A stretch of DNA of 64,000 nucleotides from Brevibacillus sp. DP1.3A. GTDB taxonomy: Bacteria > Bacillota > Bacilli > Brevibacillales > Brevibacillaceae. This document shows, piece by piece, positions 2,539-11,894 of the stretch (within the stretch, counting starts at the first letter, position 1; each line of letters begins with the position of its first letter). Location: the NCBI RefSeq assembly GCF_013284245.2, contig NZ_CP085876.1, forward strand, positions 5,358,001-5,422,000, given 5' to 3'. The position numbers and the translations under genes were made by a program. The notes beneath the pieces are model-generated. The model saw only the letters and a program-made list of their open reading frames with translations, was not told the origin of the DNA and ran no database searches.

Positions 2539-4347
2539 TTACAGAAGTCCTTCCTTTTTCCCTTTTTGTACCGCGTCATCCCGATTCCGCACTCCGAGCT
2601 TGTCATACAGAGCAGACGCATAGTTACGCACTGTCCCATCTGACAAATACAGCTTGGAAGCGATTGTTTTATAGCGCATGCCTTGGGAGAGCATCTGCAA
2701 AATCTCCAGCTCCCGCTTCGTTAAACCATAAGCATTCTCGTCTTTTTCGCTTATTTTCGGTGCAACGAGTAAATCTTCCTGTTCGTTTACTGGCTGTGCA
2801 TCCAGCATTTTATGAAGTAGGTCTTGTGCAATCATCGTACCGCCGCGATGGACGAGGCGAATCGTTTCCGCTAGCTCGCGTGATTCAATCGATTTCAAGA
2901 GATAGCCGTCTGCACCACTACGCATGATTTCTTTGGCTTTTTCAGTATCCTGAAACGTAGACAGGACAAGAACACGAATACCCGGCCATTTTTCCTTTAT
3001 TCGTTTTGTCGCAGTGATCCCGTCCATATTCGGCATTTCCAAGTCCATCAGCACGAGGTCTGGTTCTAGCTCCTCGCACAGCTCCACAGCCTGCGCCCCA
3101 TCCTCGGCTAACCCGACTACCCGCAGGTCCCGCTGTCCCTCGAGTATGGTGCGCAAGCTTTCCCGAATAAACGAGTGATCATCTACGATAAACAAACGAA
3201 TGATTTCATCCGCGCTCTCTACCAGCCTCGGCACAAAACAAGTAACGATCGTTCCTTCTCCCCGCTCTGAGTATACGGATACTCTTCCTTGCAAATGAGA
3301 TGCCCTCTCTTTCATCGTCGTGATCCCGAAACCATCCTTCCAATTTTCCATCCCGTGACCGTTATCCTGTACTTCCAGCCTCGTCTGTTGCGGCTCAAAA
3401 TAGAGAGAAACGACGATGTCCGTAGCCTGCCCGTGGCGTACCGCATTCGTCAAAGATTCCTGCAAGCAGCGAAAAAAGGTCATTTTCACCTGCTTACCAA
3501 CAGGATACTCTTCTCCGATCGCACGAAACCGCACATTCACCTTGGCATGTGTCTGAAACTCCTCCGCAAGCTGCCTCAGCGAATGGACCAAGGGAAGTGT
3601 CTCTTCCGGTGACCCCATCTGATGCAAGTACCCTCTCACTTCCTTCATGCCTTTTCGCGCAAGCTGCAAGAGGGAGTCGAGCTTTTGCGTCCCTTCCTGC
3701 GACGCTACATCCGGACGTAAGGTTTCCAGCCCCATGATGATCGAGACATAGGAATGCCCCATCGTATCATGCAGGTCCTTGGAAAGGCGGTCCCGCTCCT
3801 CAAGCAGAGTCACTCTCTCGATTTGAGAGAGGTATTGCTCCAGCACACTGTTTTGCTTGCGGATAATTTCATTTTGCCGATGATTGACGATGAGCAAATG
3901 AAAGGCAAACCCTATCACATAAGCAAGCCCGACTTGCGGAAAAATCTCGAACACATCAATTGCACGAGAAAAAAACATTATCAACAGTGGGATAAAAACA
4001 ATCGTAATGGGAGCCGACCAGCGAAACGATTTCTCCGCACTATTGGCGGCAATCAAAAAAGCTGGCATCAAAAAAGTAAGGTACGCCTCCGGAAACATAG
4101 ACGTGAGATAAATCGATAATCCGCCAAACAAGAGCATTTCTGCTATCAGATAGTAACGATAGCTCAGCATTAAACAAATCCACGGGACGGAAAAAACCAT
4201 CATTTCCCAAAGTATAACCATCCATAAGGGCAGAGTGAGATATTCTCCAAAATTTACAGTCGTAACGGTGAGTGAAAAGCAAACGATCAGACGCAAAAAA
4301 AACATCACCCAGTCATACCAGGCCCATTGTTTTACGATATCTAACAA
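2539..4347 (-). CDS. Fused sensor histidine kinase and LuxR/NarL-type response regulator
   Basis: One 602-residue chain carries a complete two-component system. Residues 1-155 form five to six hydrophobic membrane segments. A dimerisation helix with the HisKA_3 H-box follows (ERDRLSKDLHDTMGH, phosphoacceptor His193), then a HATPase with N-box (QESLTNAVRHG) and G-boxes (DNGHGM, GFGITTMKERA). From about residue 383 there is a receiver domain (IVDDHS; acceptor Asp435 in LVLMDLEMP) and a LuxR helix-turn-helix at 541-602. In this family (DesK/LiaS type) kinase and regulator are normally separate overlapping genes. The start is a TTG at 4347 behind AGGGG, 4 bp after the upstream gene stop, so the two genes are co-transcribed. 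Likely targets are the three hydrolase genes upstream, which share a palindrome. Confidence 0.88.
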   Translation of the reverse strand: MLDIVKQWAWYDWVMFFLRLIVCFSLTVTTVNFGEYLTLPLWMVILWEMMVFSVPWICLMLSYRYYLIAEMLLFGGLSIYLTSMFPEAYLTFLMPAFLIAANSAEKSFRWSAPITIVFIPLLIMFFSRAIDVFEIFPQVGLAYVIGFAFHLLIVNHRQNEIIRKQNSVLEQYLSQIERVTLLEERDRLSKDLHDTMGHSYVSIIMGLETLRPDVASQEGTQKLDSLLQLARKGMKEVRGYLHQMGSPEETLPLVHSLRQLAEEFQTHAKVNVRFRAIGEEYPVGKQVKMTFFRCLQESLTNAVRHGQATDIVVSLYFEPQQTRLEVQDNGHGMENWKDGFGITTMKERASHLQGRVSVYSERGEGTIVTCFVPRLVESADEIIRLFIVDDHSFIRESLRTILEGQRDLRVVGLAEDGAQAVELCEELEPDLVLMDLEMPNMDGITATKRIKEKWPGIRVLVLSTFQDTEKAKEIMRSGADGYLLKSIESRELAETIRLVHRGGTMIAQDLLHKMLDAQPVNEQEDLLVAPKISEKDENAYGLTKRELEILQMLSQGMRYKTIASKLYLSDGTVRNYASALYDKLGVRNRDDAVQKGKKEGLL

Positions 4348-4351
4348 ACTA

Positions 4352-4939
4352 TCATCCCCTAATTGCTTTGAACATCAAGCGCGTGTACCCACCAATTAAA
4401 TGTACGAGTCCGTTCCCGAGCTTGGAGCACCCGATCATGAGTATGAATCCTAAACTCATTATTTGCAATGCCTTCAGTTCTGAATCCACTACGCTCCCGA
4501 AAAAATGTAGCTCAACGAAAGGATAGAGCAACGGTATGAACGCAAAACATACGGGTGCAATGTAGATGAGCACTCCGATAATCAGGCAAATGCACCCTAG
4601 GACGAATTTTTGCATCAGCCAATAAACGGATATCCAGTTTCTTACATTCATTAATTCCGCCTTTGCCTGCATCCATTGGTTTCCCACTGCTCTTTGTCTC
4701 ATTGCCAACGGTTCTATGGAAATATCGGTATAAATCTTCGTCTGAATACGTTCATGCTGGACAAAGGTTTGGCTTGTACGCAACACATTGGTGAGCAATG
4801 GAATTCCCACTACGGTAAATGACAAGGCCAAGCCAAGCACGATACTGACCAAGTAAAAACATAAATAAAATACCCCCGAGACAAATGTAAACAGCAAAAA
4901 GATAACATTTTGAACGTTACGCATAATCGCTCTTTTCAT
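4352..4939 (-). CDS. Membrane 'putative sensor' domain protein
   Basis: A 195-aa integral membrane protein with about four hydrophobic segments (residues 10-45, 108-125, 130-150 and 160-175). Its layout (FLLFTFVSGVFYL near the N-terminus, VVGIPLL, then a second hydrophobic half) resembles the 'putative sensor' domain usually fused to the N-terminus of NarL-family kinases. Here it is a separate gene 4 bp upstream of the kinase-regulator fusion, so it probably provides signal input. ATG 4939 follows an in-frame TAG; the nearest Shine-Dalgarno (AGGAG) is about 13 nt upstream, which is long. The gene diverges from the first hydrolase gene. Confidence 0.7.
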   Translation of the reverse strand: MKRAIMRNVQNVIFLLFTFVSGVFYLCFYLVSIVLGLALSFTVVGIPLLTNVLRTSQTFVQHERIQTKIYTDISIEPLAMRQRAVGNQWMQAKAELMNVRNWISVYWLMQKFVLGCICLIIGVLIYIAPVCFAFIPLLYPFVELHFFGSVVDSELKALQIMSLGFILMIGCSKLGNGLVHLIGGYTRLMFKAIRG

Positions 4940-5036: not shown

Positions 5037-5048
5037 TGTCATATGACA
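5037..5048. promoter_or_regulatory. Palindromic operator candidate TGTCATATGACA
   Basis: A perfect 12-bp palindrome in the divergent region between the sensor-kinase operon and the first hydrolase gene. An identical copy lies at 9737-9748 and a degenerate one at 7229-7240, each upstream of a paralog. Binding by the adjacent LuxR-type regulator is an inference. Confidence 0.55.
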
Positions 5049-5097: not shown

Positions 5098-5125
5098 ATG
5101 ACAGGAAGTAACTACCGAGTATGAC
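5098..5125 (+). promoter_or_regulatory. Conserved promoter of hydrolase paralog 1
   Basis: ATGACA (5 of 6 to the -35 consensus), 16 bp, then TATGAC (4 of 6 to the -10 consensus). The same pair with the same spacing precedes paralogs 2 and 3. Confidence 0.5.
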
Positions 5126-5204
5126 ACTAGCTTTGCCATACTGTGCTCAAGCGCTCACTCTCGGAGTCGCTGCGGTGTTACCAACACAAAAAGGAGAATC
5201 GCAC

Positions 5205-7199
5205 ATGAAAAAAGTGATACAAAAAATGAGTCTCGCCGTTTTTCTTCTCTCCACCACCTTGATTACCGCATGCACACAGCCGCTCGGTGCCATGGAATCA
5301 AATCAGACTGCTTCCAGCATAAACGGACCAGTGGATGCCAAAGAAGTAGAAGCATTTGCCGATCCACTGTTTGCAGAGAAAATGAAACAATACAATGTGA
5401 ATGGTTCGAGCTTTGTGGTCGTCCGTGATGGCAAGGTCATCGTGAACAAAGGCTACGGCTTCGCTAACAAGGAAAAGAAAATCCCTGTTGATAAAGATAC
5501 GGTGTTCCAAATTGCCTCTGTATCGAAAACCTTTACCGCTTTGGCTGCCATGCAGCAAGTCGATGCGGGTAATATTGACCTGCATGGCAATGTAGAGGAA
5601 TATCTCGGTGGGCTAAAGATTCCTAATAAGACAGGAAAACCGGTCACCATGTACGACTTGCTTACCTACACAAGTGGCATCGATTTGCCTGATGGCATTG
5701 CCATTACCGGTGCCCAATACATTGATCAGGACATCTCGATGGATGAATACCTTCCAAAGCATATGCCGACCGTCATCCGACCACCTGGCGAGGCCTATAC
5801 GTATGATAATTCTGGATTCTTACTTGCTGGTTACGCCGTGGAAAATGCAAGTGGAATCCCCTTTGCCCAGTATATGGATGAAAAAGTGTTCAAGCCTCTC
5901 GGAATGACCTCAAGCAGTGTACGCTTTAAGCCTGAGCTCATGAAGCGAATGGCTGCCAATTACGTCGGTCGTAAAGGAGAGCTTCGTCCTCCAGAAGGGC
6001 GCACTCCAACTGATGGTCCACAGGGAAGCATTCTATCAACAGGCGAAGACATGGCCAAGTATATGATCATGCAGCTGCAAAACGGAAAATTTGACGGCAA
6101 GGAAATCGTCAGCGAAAAAAGCATGGACTTGATGCATACGTACCAGATTTTCGCGAATAAGGACATCCCGATCACAACCGTAGGCTTTGAAGGCTATTTT
6201 CCAGAGCTGGCAAATGGTCAACACGTTGTTTTGAAGGGTGGAAACATGCCTGGCCATTCTTCCCTGATGGTATTGGTCCCAGAACAAAAAACCGGCTTTT
6301 TCATGTCCTACAACAATGATTCATTATTAAGCTCCGAAATTTACAAAGAATTCATGGATCATTACTTCCCAGCGACAAAAGAACAAGCAGAGCCTGCTTA
6401 CTTACCTTTGAGTGAAAAGGATGCGCAAAAATATTTCGGGCTGTATCAAAATACGCGTGTCTATTTTGCCCGTACTTCTATTACCTACGAGAATGGCTCA
6501 CTCGTGCTTGAGAATGAGATAACCGGAAAACAAAAGCTGCGAATGATTCATCCATTGCTGTTTGTAGATGAGGAAGGCAATAAAGTCGCGTTCAAGGAAG
6601 ACAAAAACGGTAACATCAAATACTTCTATTATGCAACGCCAAAAGGTGCTTTACTGGTTGCCGATTCACAAAAAATGGAAATGAAACAGACCTACTCAGA
6701 CGTCTCTAACACTAGTAGCTATAAGACCTATATCAACAACCTCAGCGCTCTTTCCATTATGGGAGCAAAAACAGGAAATAAATTTGATCCTACAGGAACC
6801 ATGACACAAGGCGAATTTACTGACGCTCTGATCAAAGCACAAGGCATGTACGTATTTGCCGGGAGTGAAGACGGGATTAGACAGCAATTGGCCGCGGGCA
6901 TCCCTAATTTGAATCCATCTGCACCAATCACCAGACAAGTCGCTGCTGTCATGATCCAAAATTTGAAGCAGCTTGAACCAGTGGCAAACACCAAAACGAA
7001 GCTACAAGATACCGCCGATGCATGGGCAAAAGATGCGATCACTGCTCTTGTTTCACAAGGCATCGTTGATCCGGATACGAAAGTAAGCGCAAATGGCTCT
7101 TTCACATTCCGCGCAAAAGATTTACTGAAGCGTCAAGAAGCAAGTGCCTTGCTTGATTTAGCGTTTGGCTACTATTCGCTGCCGATTAAACGAAACTAA
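5205..7199 (+). CDS. Serine beta-lactamase-like hydrolase, lipoprotein with SLH-like C-terminus (paralog 1)
   Basis: 664 aa from ATG 5205 behind AAAAAGGAGAATCGCAC; the frame is open further upstream but without a ribosome site. The signal peptide ends in a lipobox (I-T-A-C, Cys23), predicting lipid anchoring. The catalytic domain spans about 45-390 with the class C/PBP-like SxxK at Ser105-Lys108 (SVSK), YDN at 200-202, and GGNMPGHSS in the place of the third motif. A small beta domain follows. The last 160 residues contain degenerate SLH units (FDPTGTMTQGEF, APITRQVAAVMIQ, DAITALVSQGIVDP, LLKRQEASALLDLAFG). Family members hydrolyse D-Ala peptides, beta-lactams or esters; the substrate cannot be assigned. 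It is one of three tandem copies with duplicated promoters. Confidence 0.88.
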   Translation: MKKVIQKMSLAVFLLSTTLITACTQPLGAMESNQTASSINGPVDAKEVEAFADPLFAEKMKQYNVNGSSFVVVRDGKVIVNKGYGFANKEKKIPVDKDTVFQIASVSKTFTALAAMQQVDAGNIDLHGNVEEYLGGLKIPNKTGKPVTMYDLLTYTSGIDLPDGIAITGAQYIDQDISMDEYLPKHMPTVIRPPGEAYTYDNSGFLLAGYAVENASGIPFAQYMDEKVFKPLGMTSSSVRFKPELMKRMAANYVGRKGELRPPEGRTPTDGPQGSILSTGEDMAKYMIMQLQNGKFDGKEIVSEKSMDLMHTYQIFANKDIPITTVGFEGYFPELANGQHVVLKGGNMPGHSSLMVLVPEQKTGFFMSYNNDSLLSSEIYKEFMDHYFPATKEQAEPAYLPLSEKDAQKYFGLYQNTRVYFARTSITYENGSLVLENEITGKQKLRMIHPLLFVDEEGNKVAFKEDKNGNIKYFYYATPKGALLVADSQKMEMKQTYSDVSNTSSYKTYINNLSALSIMGAKTGNKFDPTGTMTQGEFTDALIKAQGMYVFAGSEDGIRQQLAAGIPNLNPSAPITRQVAAVMIQNLKQLEPVANTKTKLQDTADAWAKDAITALVSQGIVDPDTKVSANGSFTFRAKDLLKRQEASALLDLAFGYYSLPIKRN

Positions 7200-7228: not shown

Positions 7229-7326
7229 CGTCATATGGCATGTCAAGTCATGTCATTTCATCACAGAGACAGCAACTATTTTGTATATCGGAAAAATGAT
7301 GACAAGAAGTAACTACCGAGTATGAC
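7229..7326 (+). promoter_or_regulatory. Duplicated control region of hydrolase paralog 2
   Basis: Degenerate operator CGTCATATGGCA at 7229-7240 (symmetry lost at two positions), then ATGACA (7299-7304), 16 bp, TATGAC (7321-7326). The block from about 7214 to 7412 is a near copy of 5024-5204, showing that promoter and gene were duplicated together. Confidence 0.55.
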
Positions 7327-7412
7327 GCGAGCTTTGCCATACTGTGCTCAAGCGCTCATTCTCAGAGTCGGTGCGTCAAAACGTGTTGCCAAAACAAAAA
7401 GGAGAATCGCAC

Positions 7413-9413
7413 ATGAAAAAAGTGATACAAAAAATGAGTCTCGTCGTTTTTCTTCTCTCCACGACCTTGATTGCCGCATGCACGCAACCGCTCGGTGCTG
7501 TGGAATCCACTCAGACTGCTTCCATTGCTGCCCAAGGACCGTTGGATGCCAAAGAAATAGAAGCGTTTGCCGATCCACTGTTTGCAGATAAAATGAAAGA
7601 ATTTAATGTGACTGGTTCCAGCTTTGTTGTTGTCCGTGATGGCAAGGTCATCGTGAACAAAGGCTACGGCTTTGCTGACAAGGAAAAGAAAACCCCTGTT
7701 GATAAAGACACGGTGTTCCAAATTGCCTCAGTATCGAAAACCTTTACCGCCTTGGCTGCCATGCAGCAAGTCGATGCGGGTAAAATTGACCTGCATGGCA
7801 ATATAGAGGAATATCTCGGTGGGCTAAAAATTCCTAATAAGACAGGAAAACCGGTCTCCATGTACGACTTGCTCACCTACTCAACTGGCTTCGAATTGCC
7901 TGACGAAACTACCTTTACCGGTCCACAATACATCGGGCAGGACATCTCTATGGATGAATTCCTTCCAAAGCACATGCCGACCGTCATCCGACCACCTGGC
8001 GAAGCCTATACGTATGATAATACAGGATTCTTACTCGCTGGCTACGCCGTGGAAAAAGCAAGTGGAATCCCCTATGCCCAGTATATGGATGAAAAAGTGT
8101 TCAAGCCTCTCGGAATGACCTCGACCAGTGTACGCTTCAAGCCTGAGCTCATGAAGCGAATGGCTGCCCATTACGATCTTAATGGCGAGCCACGTCCGGC
8201 AGAAGGACACGCTCCAACTGATGGTCCGCAGGGAAGCATTCTATCAACAGCAGAAGACATGGCAAAGTACGTGATCATGCAGCTGCAAAACGGAAAATTT
8301 GACGGCAAGGAAATCGTCAGCGAGAAAAGCATGGACTTGATGCATTCTTTTCAGATTTTCGCAGAAAAGGACATCCCAATCACTACCGTAGGCTTTGAAA
8401 ACTATTTTCCAGAGTTTGCAAATGGTCAGCACGTTGTTTTGAAGGGCGGAAACATGCCAGGCCATTCTTCCCTAATGGTATTGATCCCGGAACAAAAAAC
8501 CGGCTTTTTCATGTCCTACAACAATGACACAATGTTTAGCGCTGATATTTACAAAGAATTCATGGATCATTATTTCCCGGAAAAAGTAAAAGCAAAAGCA
8601 GATCCAGAGTCTGATTACTTGCCCTTGAGTGAAGGGGATGCGCAAAAATATTTCGGGCTGTATCAAAATACGCGTTTCTATTGGACACGCACTTCTATTA
8701 CCTATGAGAATGGATCACTCGTGCTTGAGGGTGAGGCAACCGGAAAACAAAAGCTGCGAATGATTCACCCATTGCTATTTGTAGATGAGGAAGGCGAAAA
8801 AATCGCGTTCAAGAAAGACCAAAACGGTAACATCAAATACTTCTATTATACAACGGAAAAAGGCGCTAGCCTTGCTGCCGATTCACAAAAAATGGAAATG
8901 AAAAACACCTACTCAGACGTCCCTAACACCAGCAGCTATAAGACCCATATCAACAACCTCAGCGCCTTTTCCATTATGGGAGCGAAAACAGGAAGTAAAT
9001 TTGATCCTACAGGGACCATGACACAAGGCGAATTTGCTGACGCCCTGATCAAAGCACAAGGCATGTACGTAATGGCCGGGAGTGAAGACGGGATTAGACA
9101 GCAAATGGTTGCTGGCATCCCTAATTTGAACCCATCGGCACCAATCACAAGACAAGTCGCTGCTGCCATGATCCAAAATTTGAAGCAACTTGAACCTGTG
9201 GCAACCAGCAAAGTGACGCTGCAAGACAACGCCGACACATGGGCAGCAGATGCGATCACTGCACTTGTTTCACAAGGCGTCGTGGATCCTGATACGAAGG
9301 TAAGCGCAGATGGCTCTTTCACATTCCGCGGAAAAGATTTACTGAAGCGTCAAGAAGCCAGTGCCTTGCTTGATTTAGCGTTTGGCTACTATTCATTGCC
9401 GATTAAACAGTAA
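7413..9413 (+). CDS. Serine beta-lactamase-like hydrolase, lipoprotein with SLH-like C-terminus (paralog 2)
   Basis: 666 aa from ATG 7413 behind AAAAAGGAGAATCGCAC. It is nearly identical in plan to the first copy: lipobox I-A-A-C at Cys23, SVSK nucleophile motif, YDN, GGNMPGHSS, then degenerate SLH units ending in LALGYYSLPIK-type sequence (here FGYYSLPIKQ). Differences cluster in surface regions (for example VKAKADPESDY near residue 395) while the catalytic core is conserved, as expected of a recent tandem duplication under selection. An exported cell-envelope hydrolase of unknown substrate. Confidence 0.88.
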   Translation: MKKVIQKMSLVVFLLSTTLIAACTQPLGAVESTQTASIAAQGPLDAKEIEAFADPLFADKMKEFNVTGSSFVVVRDGKVIVNKGYGFADKEKKTPVDKDTVFQIASVSKTFTALAAMQQVDAGKIDLHGNIEEYLGGLKIPNKTGKPVSMYDLLTYSTGFELPDETTFTGPQYIGQDISMDEFLPKHMPTVIRPPGEAYTYDNTGFLLAGYAVEKASGIPYAQYMDEKVFKPLGMTSTSVRFKPELMKRMAAHYDLNGEPRPAEGHAPTDGPQGSILSTAEDMAKYVIMQLQNGKFDGKEIVSEKSMDLMHSFQIFAEKDIPITTVGFENYFPEFANGQHVVLKGGNMPGHSSLMVLIPEQKTGFFMSYNNDTMFSADIYKEFMDHYFPEKVKAKADPESDYLPLSEGDAQKYFGLYQNTRFYWTRTSITYENGSLVLEGEATGKQKLRMIHPLLFVDEEGEKIAFKKDQNGNIKYFYYTTEKGASLAADSQKMEMKNTYSDVPNTSSYKTHINNLSAFSIMGAKTGSKFDPTGTMTQGEFADALIKAQGMYVMAGSEDGIRQQMVAGIPNLNPSAPITRQVAAAMIQNLKQLEPVATSKVTLQDNADTWAADAITALVSQGVVDPDTKVSADGSFTFRGKDLLKRQEASALLDLAFGYYSLPIKQ

Positions 9414-9736: not shown

Positions 9737-9795
9737 TGTCATATGACACAAAGTAACTACCGAGCATATGACAGAAAATAACTACCGAGTATGAC
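9737..9795 (+). promoter_or_regulatory. Duplicated control region of hydrolase paralog 3
   Basis: Perfect TGTCATATGACA at 9737-9748, then ATGACA (9768-9773), 16 bp, TATGAC (9790-9795). The segment TAACTACCGAG occurs twice in tandem here (once before each ATGAC motif), a local duplication absent from the other two promoters. Confidence 0.55.
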
Positions 9796-9890
9796 ACGAG
9801 CTTTGCCATACTGTGCTCAAGCGCTCACTCTCGGAGTCGGTGCCCCAAAACGTGTTAGCATAAAAGCATAAATCAAAAGGGGAATCTCGC

Positions 9891-11894
9891 ATGAAAAAGG
9901 TTTTTCAAAAAATGAGTCTCACGGTTTTTCTTCTCTCCACGACCTTGATTGCCGTATGCACGCAGCCACTTGGTGCAATGGAAATAAATCAGACTGCTTC
10001 CATTGCTGCCACCAACATAAAAGGACCGCTGGATGCCAAAGAAGTAGAAGCGTTTGCCGATCAACTGTTTGCAGAGAAAATGAAAAAATTTAATGTGAAT
10101 GGTTCCAACTTTGTTGTCGTCCACGATGGCAAGGTTATCGTGAACAAAGGATACGGTTTCGCTGACAAGGAAAAGAAAATCCCTGTTGATAAAGACACGG
10201 TGTTCCAAATTGGCTCTGTAACGAAAACCTTTACCGCCATGGCCGTCTTGCAGCAAGTCGATGCGGGCAAAATAGACCTGCATCATAATGTAGAGGAATA
10301 TCTCGGCGGGGTAAAGATTCCCAATACGACCGGAAAACCGCTCACCATGTACGACATGCTTACCTACTCAAGCGGCTTCGATATGCCTGACATCACTACC
10401 TTTCTCGGTCCACAATACACCGAGCAGGACATCTCGATGGATGAATTCCTTTCCAAGAATAATATGCCGACTGTCATCCGACCACCTGGCGAGGTCTATT
10501 CGTATGATAATACTGGATTCTTACTCGCTGGCTACGCCGTGGAAAAAGCAAGTGGAGTCCCTTATAACGAGTATATGGATGAAAAAGTGTTCAAGCCTCT
10601 CGGAATGACCTCTAGTAGCGTACGCTTCAAGCCTGAGCTCTTGAAGAGAATGGCTGCCCATTACCGCCCTAATGGCGAGCCACATCCGGCAGATGGATTC
10701 CTTCCAACTGATGCTCCGCAGGGAAGCATTCTATCAACGGGAGAAGACATGGCCAAGTACATGATCATGCACCTGCAAAACGGAAAATTTGATGGCAAGG
10801 AAATCGTAAGCCAAAAAAGCATGGACTTAATGCATTCTTACCAGATTTTTGCGGAAAAGGACATCCCGGTCACAACAGTAGGCTTTGAAAACCTTTATAG
10901 AGACCTGACAAATGGTCAGCACGTTGTTTTCAAGGGTGGAAACATTACTGGACATGCTTCCCTGATCGTATTGATCCCTGAACAAAAAACTGCCTTTTAT
11001 ATGTCCTACAACAATGATTCGGACATGAGAGCAGAAATTTTCAAAGAGTTCATGGATCATTATTTCCCGGAAAAAGAAAAAGCGGAGCCTGTGTATTTGC
11101 CCTTGAGTGAAAAGGACGCGCAAAAATATATCGGGCTGTACCAAAATACGCGTGGCTTTTGGAACCGCACTTCTATTGCCTACGAGAATGGCTCACTTAT
11201 GGTGGAAGATGCAACAATCGGAAAACAAAAGCTGCGCATGATTCATCCACTACTGTTTGTAGATGAGGAAGGCAGTAAAATCGCATTCAAAGAAGAGAAA
11301 GACGGTAACATTACATACTTCTATTATCCCACGCCAAAAAACGTCTCACTTGCCGTTGCCCATTCACAAAAAATGGATAAGAAAGAGACATACTCAGACG
11401 TATCTAATAGCAGTAGCTATAAGACCTATATCAACAATCTCAGCGCTCTTTCCATTATGGGAGCAAAAACAGGCAGTAAATTTGATCCTACTGGGACCAT
11501 GACACAAGGCGAATTTATTGATGCTCTGATCAAAGCACATGGCTGGTACGGATTTCCCGGGGATGAAGCCATCAATAGACAGCAATTGGCCGCGCGTGTC
11601 CCTGATTTGAACCCTTCGGCACCTATCACAAGACAAGCCGCTGCTGTCATGATCCAAACTTTGAAGCAGCTTGAACCGGAGGCAACCAACAAAGTGAAGC
11701 TGCAAGACACAGCCGATGCATGGGCAACAGATGCGATCACTACTCTTGCTTCACAAGGCATCGTCGATCCGGATACGAAGATAAGCGCAGATGGCTCTTT
11801 CACATTCCGCGCAAAAGATTTACTGAAGCGTCAAGAAGCAAGTGCCTTGATTGATTTAGCGTTTGGTTACTATTCTTTACCGATTAAGCGGTAG
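9891..11894 (+). CDS. Serine beta-lactamase-like hydrolase with SLH-like C-terminus (paralog 3)
   Basis: 667 aa from ATG 9891 behind AAAAGGGGAATCTCGC. Same architecture as the two preceding copies, with nucleophile motif SVTK, YDN, GGNITGHAS at the third site and the degenerate SLH tail. It is the most divergent of the three. The signal peptide ends LIAVC, so the residue before the candidate lipobox Cys is Val instead of Ala/Gly/Ser; lipid modification is therefore doubtful. The third-motif region also differs (NITGHAS versus NMPGHSS), which may change substrate range. Exported cell-envelope hydrolase of unknown substrate. Confidence 0.85.
   Translation: MKKVFQKMSLTVFLLSTTLIAVCTQPLGAMEINQTASIAATNIKGPLDAKEVEAFADQLFAEKMKKFNVNGSNFVVVHDGKVIVNKGYGFADKEKKIPVDKDTVFQIGSVTKTFTAMAVLQQVDAGKIDLHHNVEEYLGGVKIPNTTGKPLTMYDMLTYSSGFDMPDITTFLGPQYTEQDISMDEFLSKNNMPTVIRPPGEVYSYDNTGFLLAGYAVEKASGVPYNEYMDEKVFKPLGMTSSSVRFKPELLKRMAAHYRPNGEPHPADGFLPTDAPQGSILSTGEDMAKYMIMHLQNGKFDGKEIVSQKSMDLMHSYQIFAEKDIPVTTVGFENLYRDLTNGQHVVFKGGNITGHASLIVLIPEQKTAFYMSYNNDSDMRAEIFKEFMDHYFPEKEKAEPVYLPLSEKDAQKYIGLYQNTRGFWNRTSIAYENGSLMVEDATIGKQKLRMIHPLLFVDEEGSKIAFKEEKDGNITYFYYPTPKNVSLAVAHSQKMDKKETYSDVSNSSSYKTYINNLSALSIMGAKTGSKFDPTGTMTQGEFIDALIKAHGWYGFPGDEAINRQQLAARVPDLNPSAPITRQAAAVMIQTLKQLEPEATNKVKLQDTADAWATDAITTLASQGIVDPDTKISADGSFTFRAKDLLKRQEASALIDLAFGYYSLPIKR

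Follow-up and report, generated by a model that had tools for sequence, protein, structure and literature searches.

Introduction

Bacteroides hybrid two-component systems (HTCSs) carry a large periplasmic sensor domain. They unite a kinase, a receiver and a DNA-binding domain in a single chain, and phosphorylation is reported to relieve the inhibition of DNA binding (PMC11253607). The membrane-held regulator CadC finds its sites by diffusion and capture, at little kinetic cost (PMC7888679, PMC6320335). Among solved structures, the closest relatives of the protein described here are DesK (3gig/7ssj) for residues about 165-379, and VraR/LiaR (5hev) together with DesR (4ldz) for residues 384-602; a solved chain joining a DesK-type kinase and a LiaR/VraR/DesR-type regulator was not among the matches listed.

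The window, i.e., the whole stretch of 64,000 nucleotides analyzed from the genome of Brevibacillus sp. DP1.3A, encodes such a joined chain. The fused architecture is already known to annotators, because the NCBI pipeline names a relative from a Priestia megaterium plasmid (WP_252285655.1) 'hybrid sensor histidine kinase/response regulator transcription factor'; no study of this exact fused family was found in the literature searched. New here are the neighbors of the gene, namely a Sensor gene, serine hydrolase genes, a palindrome and a promoter element, which point to a target.

Features of the fused protein

Positions 2539-4347 of the window (minus strand) hold a single open reading frame of 602 amino acids, which starts with TTG and is free of stops throughout. 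It encodes a fused membrane histidine kinase/receiver/LuxR-type DNA-binding protein, with the following domains in order, all on the minus strand: six transmembrane (TM) helices predicted by hydropathy and in an AlphaFold model (residues 10-152; 3892-4320), HisKA_3 (PF07730, residues 184-246; 3610-3798), HATPase_c (PF02518, residues 290-374; 3226-3480), a receiver (Response_reg, PF00072, residues 386-496; 2860-3192) and a GerE/LuxR DNA-binding domain (PF00196, residues 542-594; 2566-2724). All Pfam matches lie above the curated cut-offs, which bears out the claim of the sequence-only reading that a kinase and a LuxR-type regulator form one stop-free chain. An extracytoplasmic domain was not matched in Pfam, residues 1-150 being membrane helices.

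The protein has the acceptor histidine and the N, G1 and G2 motifs of HATPase_c that characterize HisKA_3 (DesK/LiaS-type) kinases, as well as the receiver aspartate and lysine, followed by a GerE helix-turn-helix, that characterize NarL/FixJ (LuxR-type) regulators. It differs from a classical two-component system, in which kinase and regulator are separate proteins, in that a single frame encodes both, here and in 79/79 relatives. In the alignment of the fused relatives the phospho-acceptor His193 (codon 3769-3771) is kept in 79/80 sequences and Asn301 of HATPase_c in 77/80, while Asp328 and Gly330 of the same domain, Asp435 (codon 3043-3045) and Lys485 of the receiver, and Arg574, Asn575 and Lys583 of the DNA-contact region are kept in 80/80. 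Because these catalytic and DNA-contact residues are kept, the kinase half and the regulator half both look active.

The AlphaFold model (mean pLDDT 79.7, pTM 0.43), computed from an alignment that left out the plasmid-derived row, shows the six TM helices, the last of which runs on unbroken into the kinase as far as residue 209, the receiver, a disordered linker (residues 514-537) and the helix-turn-helix; given the pTM, the placement of the domains relative to one another is uncertain. No stop interrupts the junction that links the kinase to the receiver (residues 374-385, about 3193-3228 on the minus strand; 374-382, 3202-3228, if delimited more narrowly), and no frameshift has to be assumed there. 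Its length is about 9-10 residues in all relatives, and its sequence varies freely.

With kinase, receiver and DNA-binding domain on a single chain, the DNA-binding part is predicted to remain membrane-held in the absence of cleavage, as the earlier reading had argued. Such a cut, made by a protease after activation, might set free the receiver-LuxR half as a soluble regulator. Membrane-held regulators freed by proteolysis are known in general, and both a low-confidence dip of the model at residues 377-379 of the junction and the disordered residues 514-537 would be compatible with cleavage. Two points, neither of them decisive, speak for an intact chain: a junction of kept length but free sequence is more in keeping with a tether than with a specific site of cleavage, and cutting would forfeit the insulation that tethering provides. 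A sequence-conserved stretch such as would be expected of a cleavage site was not found in the junctions of the fused relatives either, which is weak evidence. Proteolytic release is judged unlikely.

A free response regulator could also arise from an internal translation start in addition to the fused product. Start-type codons (Met, Val or Leu) are present in some junctions, e.g., those of loci L085 and L130, but the ATG that begins the free regulator in the two-gene pair L061 has ATC/ATT as its counterpart here, and in approximately 20 of the 80 relatives the whole junction is devoid of ATG, GTG and TTG. The absence of any conserved start codon from the junction makes this explanation very improbable, far more so than proteolysis.

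Relatives and age of the fusion

Two further full-length fused paralogs, 42% and 41% identical to the protein, are encoded in the same genome. Orthologs were found in 12/26 genomes of the genus Brevibacillus (86-100% identical; 86-94% in the other genomes), and one more occurs within the same family. A scan of named genomes yielded 79 loci in Brevibacillus, Paenibacillus, Peribacillus, Bacillus, Oceanobacillus, Lysinibacillus and others. All of these 79 best relatives across the Bacillota are open through the junction as a single frame; one of them (L089) ends early, at 557 amino acids, well past the junction. In a class-wide sample, 22/398 genomes had a match at an E-value of 1e-65 or better, a few of these being two-gene pairs.

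These homologs bear on two doubts that the sequence-only reading had raised, that a stop had been missed near position 3200 and that the fusion was recent. A sequencing indel or a very recent stop loss joining two genes has next to no probability, with no point found in its favor: the two paralogs show the same fusion, and so do many species whose genomes were assembled independently. Because orthologs and paralogs are fused alike, chance or assembly error is ruled out. A viral or phage origin was likewise rejected, there being no relative among viral contigs.

Orthologs compared with one another give a dN/dS ratio of 0.14-0.21 overall and of 0.05-0.09 for the receiver. In a tree of 65 rows, all 50 fused rows fall on one side of a branch with an SH-aLRT support of 98, and the nearest neighbor of the fused clade is the two-gene pair L061, whose genes overlap by approximately 32 bp. 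The search behind the tree was a quick one, its split branches are long, and the fused rows were picked as best hits, so that a single origin of the fusion is favored rather than proven. By these sequence comparisons the fused family is old and under purifying selection, with one inferred origin, and the idea of a recent fusion can be set aside.

Two relatives stand out by their location. At 92% identity, the fused gene of Paenibacillus farraposensis (NZ_JAFFQR010000043.1) is much closer to the Brevibacillus form than other Paenibacillus copies are, and reflects either a recent transfer or contamination. On a plasmid of Priestia megaterium (NZ_CP085447.1) the whole module of Sensor, fused regulator and serine hydrolases is found near a class A beta-lactamase gene with BlaI/BlaR1; being plasmid-borne, this module can move between species.

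Gene neighborhood

The gene 4 bp upstream of the fused gene (4352-4939, minus strand) encodes a PF13796 'Sensor' membrane protein of 195 amino acids. It is the sole PF13796 gene in the genome, and a PF13796 relative adjoins the fused gene in 41/80 loci. Three genes on the plus strand, the first of them divergent from the Sensor operon, encode serine hydrolases of the PF00144 beta-lactamase fold with SLH, all of them proposed targets: hydrolase 1 (5205-7199), hydrolase 2 (7413-9413) and hydrolase 3 (9891-11891). These tandem genes are 79-86% identical, each has the same unusually conserved 5' leader, and they represent a recent local amplification. In 56/80 loci a relative of these serine hydrolases is encoded no more than 6 kb from the fused gene, mostly in divergent orientation. 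In this genome such genes occur beside all three fused genes, out of a total of only about 20 in 6.66 Mb.

The palindrome as a proposed operator

The intergenic region between the Sensor operon and hydrolase 1 contains a perfect 12-letter palindrome, TGTCATATGACA (5037-5048), which is proposed as the operator. It recurs exactly before hydrolase 3 (9737-9748) and in a degenerate form, CGTCATATGGCA, before hydrolase 2 (7229-7240). Only three exact copies are present in the genome. The third was rejected as a further target; it lies inside the reading frame of a non-ribosomal peptide synthetase and is therefore probably a chance occurrence. Copies with one mismatch are at background level genome-wide (11 versus 7 for the control), and copies with two mismatches are not above chance in the 64 kb window alone, so that the case for the palindrome is a comparative one.

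The palindrome keeps a steady offset from the fused gene, about -702 for Brevibacillus, -740 to -915 for most Paenibacillus and -785 for the L104 group; in loci with the Sensor or hydrolase gene on the downstream side, it is found 91-152 bp downstream. In four subfamilies, 36/36 loci carry the core, GTCAYATGAC or GTCATGTGAC, with 40 sites versus 1.3 expected; this count is descriptive and not an independent test, because the loci are interrelated and were grouped partly by presence of the motif. The 43 other loci had two sites versus 1.7 expected, which is chance level. The count within the genus is cleaner: the exact 12-mer occurs in 12/12 congeners with the ortholog versus 2/14 without it (one site each), corresponding to a Fisher p of about 1e-5 that is not corrected for kinship. 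In the subfamily of the Priestia megaterium plasmid relative, related half-sites (TGTCAT/GTCATGAC) replace the palindrome. Subfamilies B, C, E, F and G yielded no copy of the palindrome, and their operators, if any, must therefore differ.

These patterns also bear on the explanation that the palindrome and the promoter element belong to another regulator and that the fused protein controls genes elsewhere. The association is one of position, and in subfamily B (L115 among others) and subfamily C (L116 among others) a divergent serine hydrolase gene faces the fused gene, yet the palindrome is missing. On the other hand, the palindrome tracks the fused-gene locus across genera, shifts with the Sensor or hydrolase gene when that is downstream, and within the genus tracks the presence of the ortholog. 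We regard ownership by another regulator as doubtful, to the same degree as proteolytic release.

In two species an exact palindrome also precedes another serine hydrolase gene, beside a clade-C fused paralog (L131 1787, G019:C37:128578; and G023:C1:6063993); the promoter element described below precedes the L131 gene as well (the promoter was read in L131 only). These additional sites suggest action of the clade-A regulator at a distance, and either a distant target of that regulator or cross-talk between the paralogs is possible.

A putative second promoter element

About 50-60 bp beyond the palindrome lies a second conserved element of the general form RTGACA - 17 bp - RTGACR - N5-6 - TTTGCNATACT. 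Before hydrolase 1 it reads ATGACA - 17 bp - ATGACA - N5-6 - TTTGCCATACT, the last part being -10-like (5098-5142, plus strand); the copies before hydrolases 2 and 3 are at 7299-7343 and 9768-9812, also on the plus strand. A stricter pattern for the right half of the element has three matches free of mismatches in the 6.66 Mb, those before hydrolases 1-3, and a looser pattern was found in the loci of 20/80 relatives. The element may combine a -10 box (CATACT/AATACT) with half-sites over the -35 region, as expected of an activated promoter; a consensus sigma-70 promoter was not called in the region. Within it, AGTATGACA...TTGCCATACT (5117-5142, 7318-7343 and 9787-9812) could pair as a short RNA hairpin before the ribosome-binding region. 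This stretch may be promoter, operator or leader RNA; the leader matched no Rfam family.

Proposed mechanism

The explanation that we favor, and consider fairly likely as a whole, is that of a fused, DesK/DesR-like, membrane-tethered local regulator acting on the hydrolase genes via the palindrome. A DesK/DesR-type pair (HisKA_3 kinase plus NarL/LuxR regulator) would have become one membrane protein once, long ago, in the Bacillota. Its six membrane helices, with the co-encoded PF13796 protein as a putative co-sensor, would sense a signal that presumably concerns the cell envelope, as is suggested by the surface anchoring of the hydrolases. The kinase dimer would then phosphorylate its attached receivers, which probably relieves the inhibition of DNA binding, by analogy with the mechanism reported for Bacteroides HTCSs, and would free two DNA-binding domains on flexible linkers. 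A side-by-side LuxR pair on a kinase dimer would suit a 12-bp palindrome, and the dimer is expected to bind TGTCATATGACA and the RTGACA half-sites close to it, in the region that separates its own operon from the divergent hydrolase genes. Hydrolase transcription would be changed, most likely raised rather than repressed. The protein would act without cleavage, still anchored in the membrane, and reach its site by diffusion and capture. Taken together, the fused protein probably turns on the adjacent genes for cell-surface enzymes via the palindrome while remaining membrane-anchored throughout.

A wider claim would be that intact two-component proteins anchored in the membrane form a Gram-positive family which, from the membrane, regulates near and distant serine hydrolase genes through a defined palindromic operator, with the kinase dimer setting the DNA-binding dimer; for this claim we see about even grounds for and against. 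The fused one-chain arrangement is stable over several genera, the predicted regulon consists of cell-surface serine hydrolases, and the locus makes it possible to test whether genes are controlled from the membrane. Provided that the operator is assigned correctly, this is a small, non-pathogen system with a defined promoter for asking how a kinase-tethered DNA-binding domain stays silent and how it reaches its site.

Comparison with known systems

By its domains, the fused protein belongs with the DesK/DesR and LiaSR/VraSR systems, with which it shares the domain families and the order of signalling steps. It differs from them in being one chain with six TM helices, in the co-encoded PF13796 protein and in its proposed serine hydrolase targets. 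WP_252285655.1, at 65% identity, is a direct relative whose gene is likewise accompanied by the Sensor gene and has serine hydrolase genes nearby, one difference being that it is plasmid-borne.

Like Bacteroides HTCSs (PMC11253607), the protein unites a membrane kinase, a receiver and a DNA-binding domain in a single polypeptide and is encoded beside presumed target genes. The family is not filed with the HTCSs, because their DNA-binding domain is of the AraC type and no AraC-type domain was matched in the fused protein by Pfam. It has HisKA_3 and GerE/LuxR domains instead, lacks the large periplasmic sensor domain and resides in a Gram-positive host. With CadC/ToxR it shares a DNA-binding domain at the membrane and a local target, for which diffusion and capture are enough (PMC6320335, PMC7888679). 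The 'unusual way to reach promoters' implied by the sequence-only reading was therefore overstated: diffusion and capture suffice for membrane-held CadC to locate its site (PMC7888679, PMC6320335), so that no special route is needed, and the one-chain logic has its counterpart in the HTCSs (PMC11253607). CadC and ToxR have neither kinase nor receiver, whereas signalling in the fused protein would proceed by His-Asp phosphotransfer.
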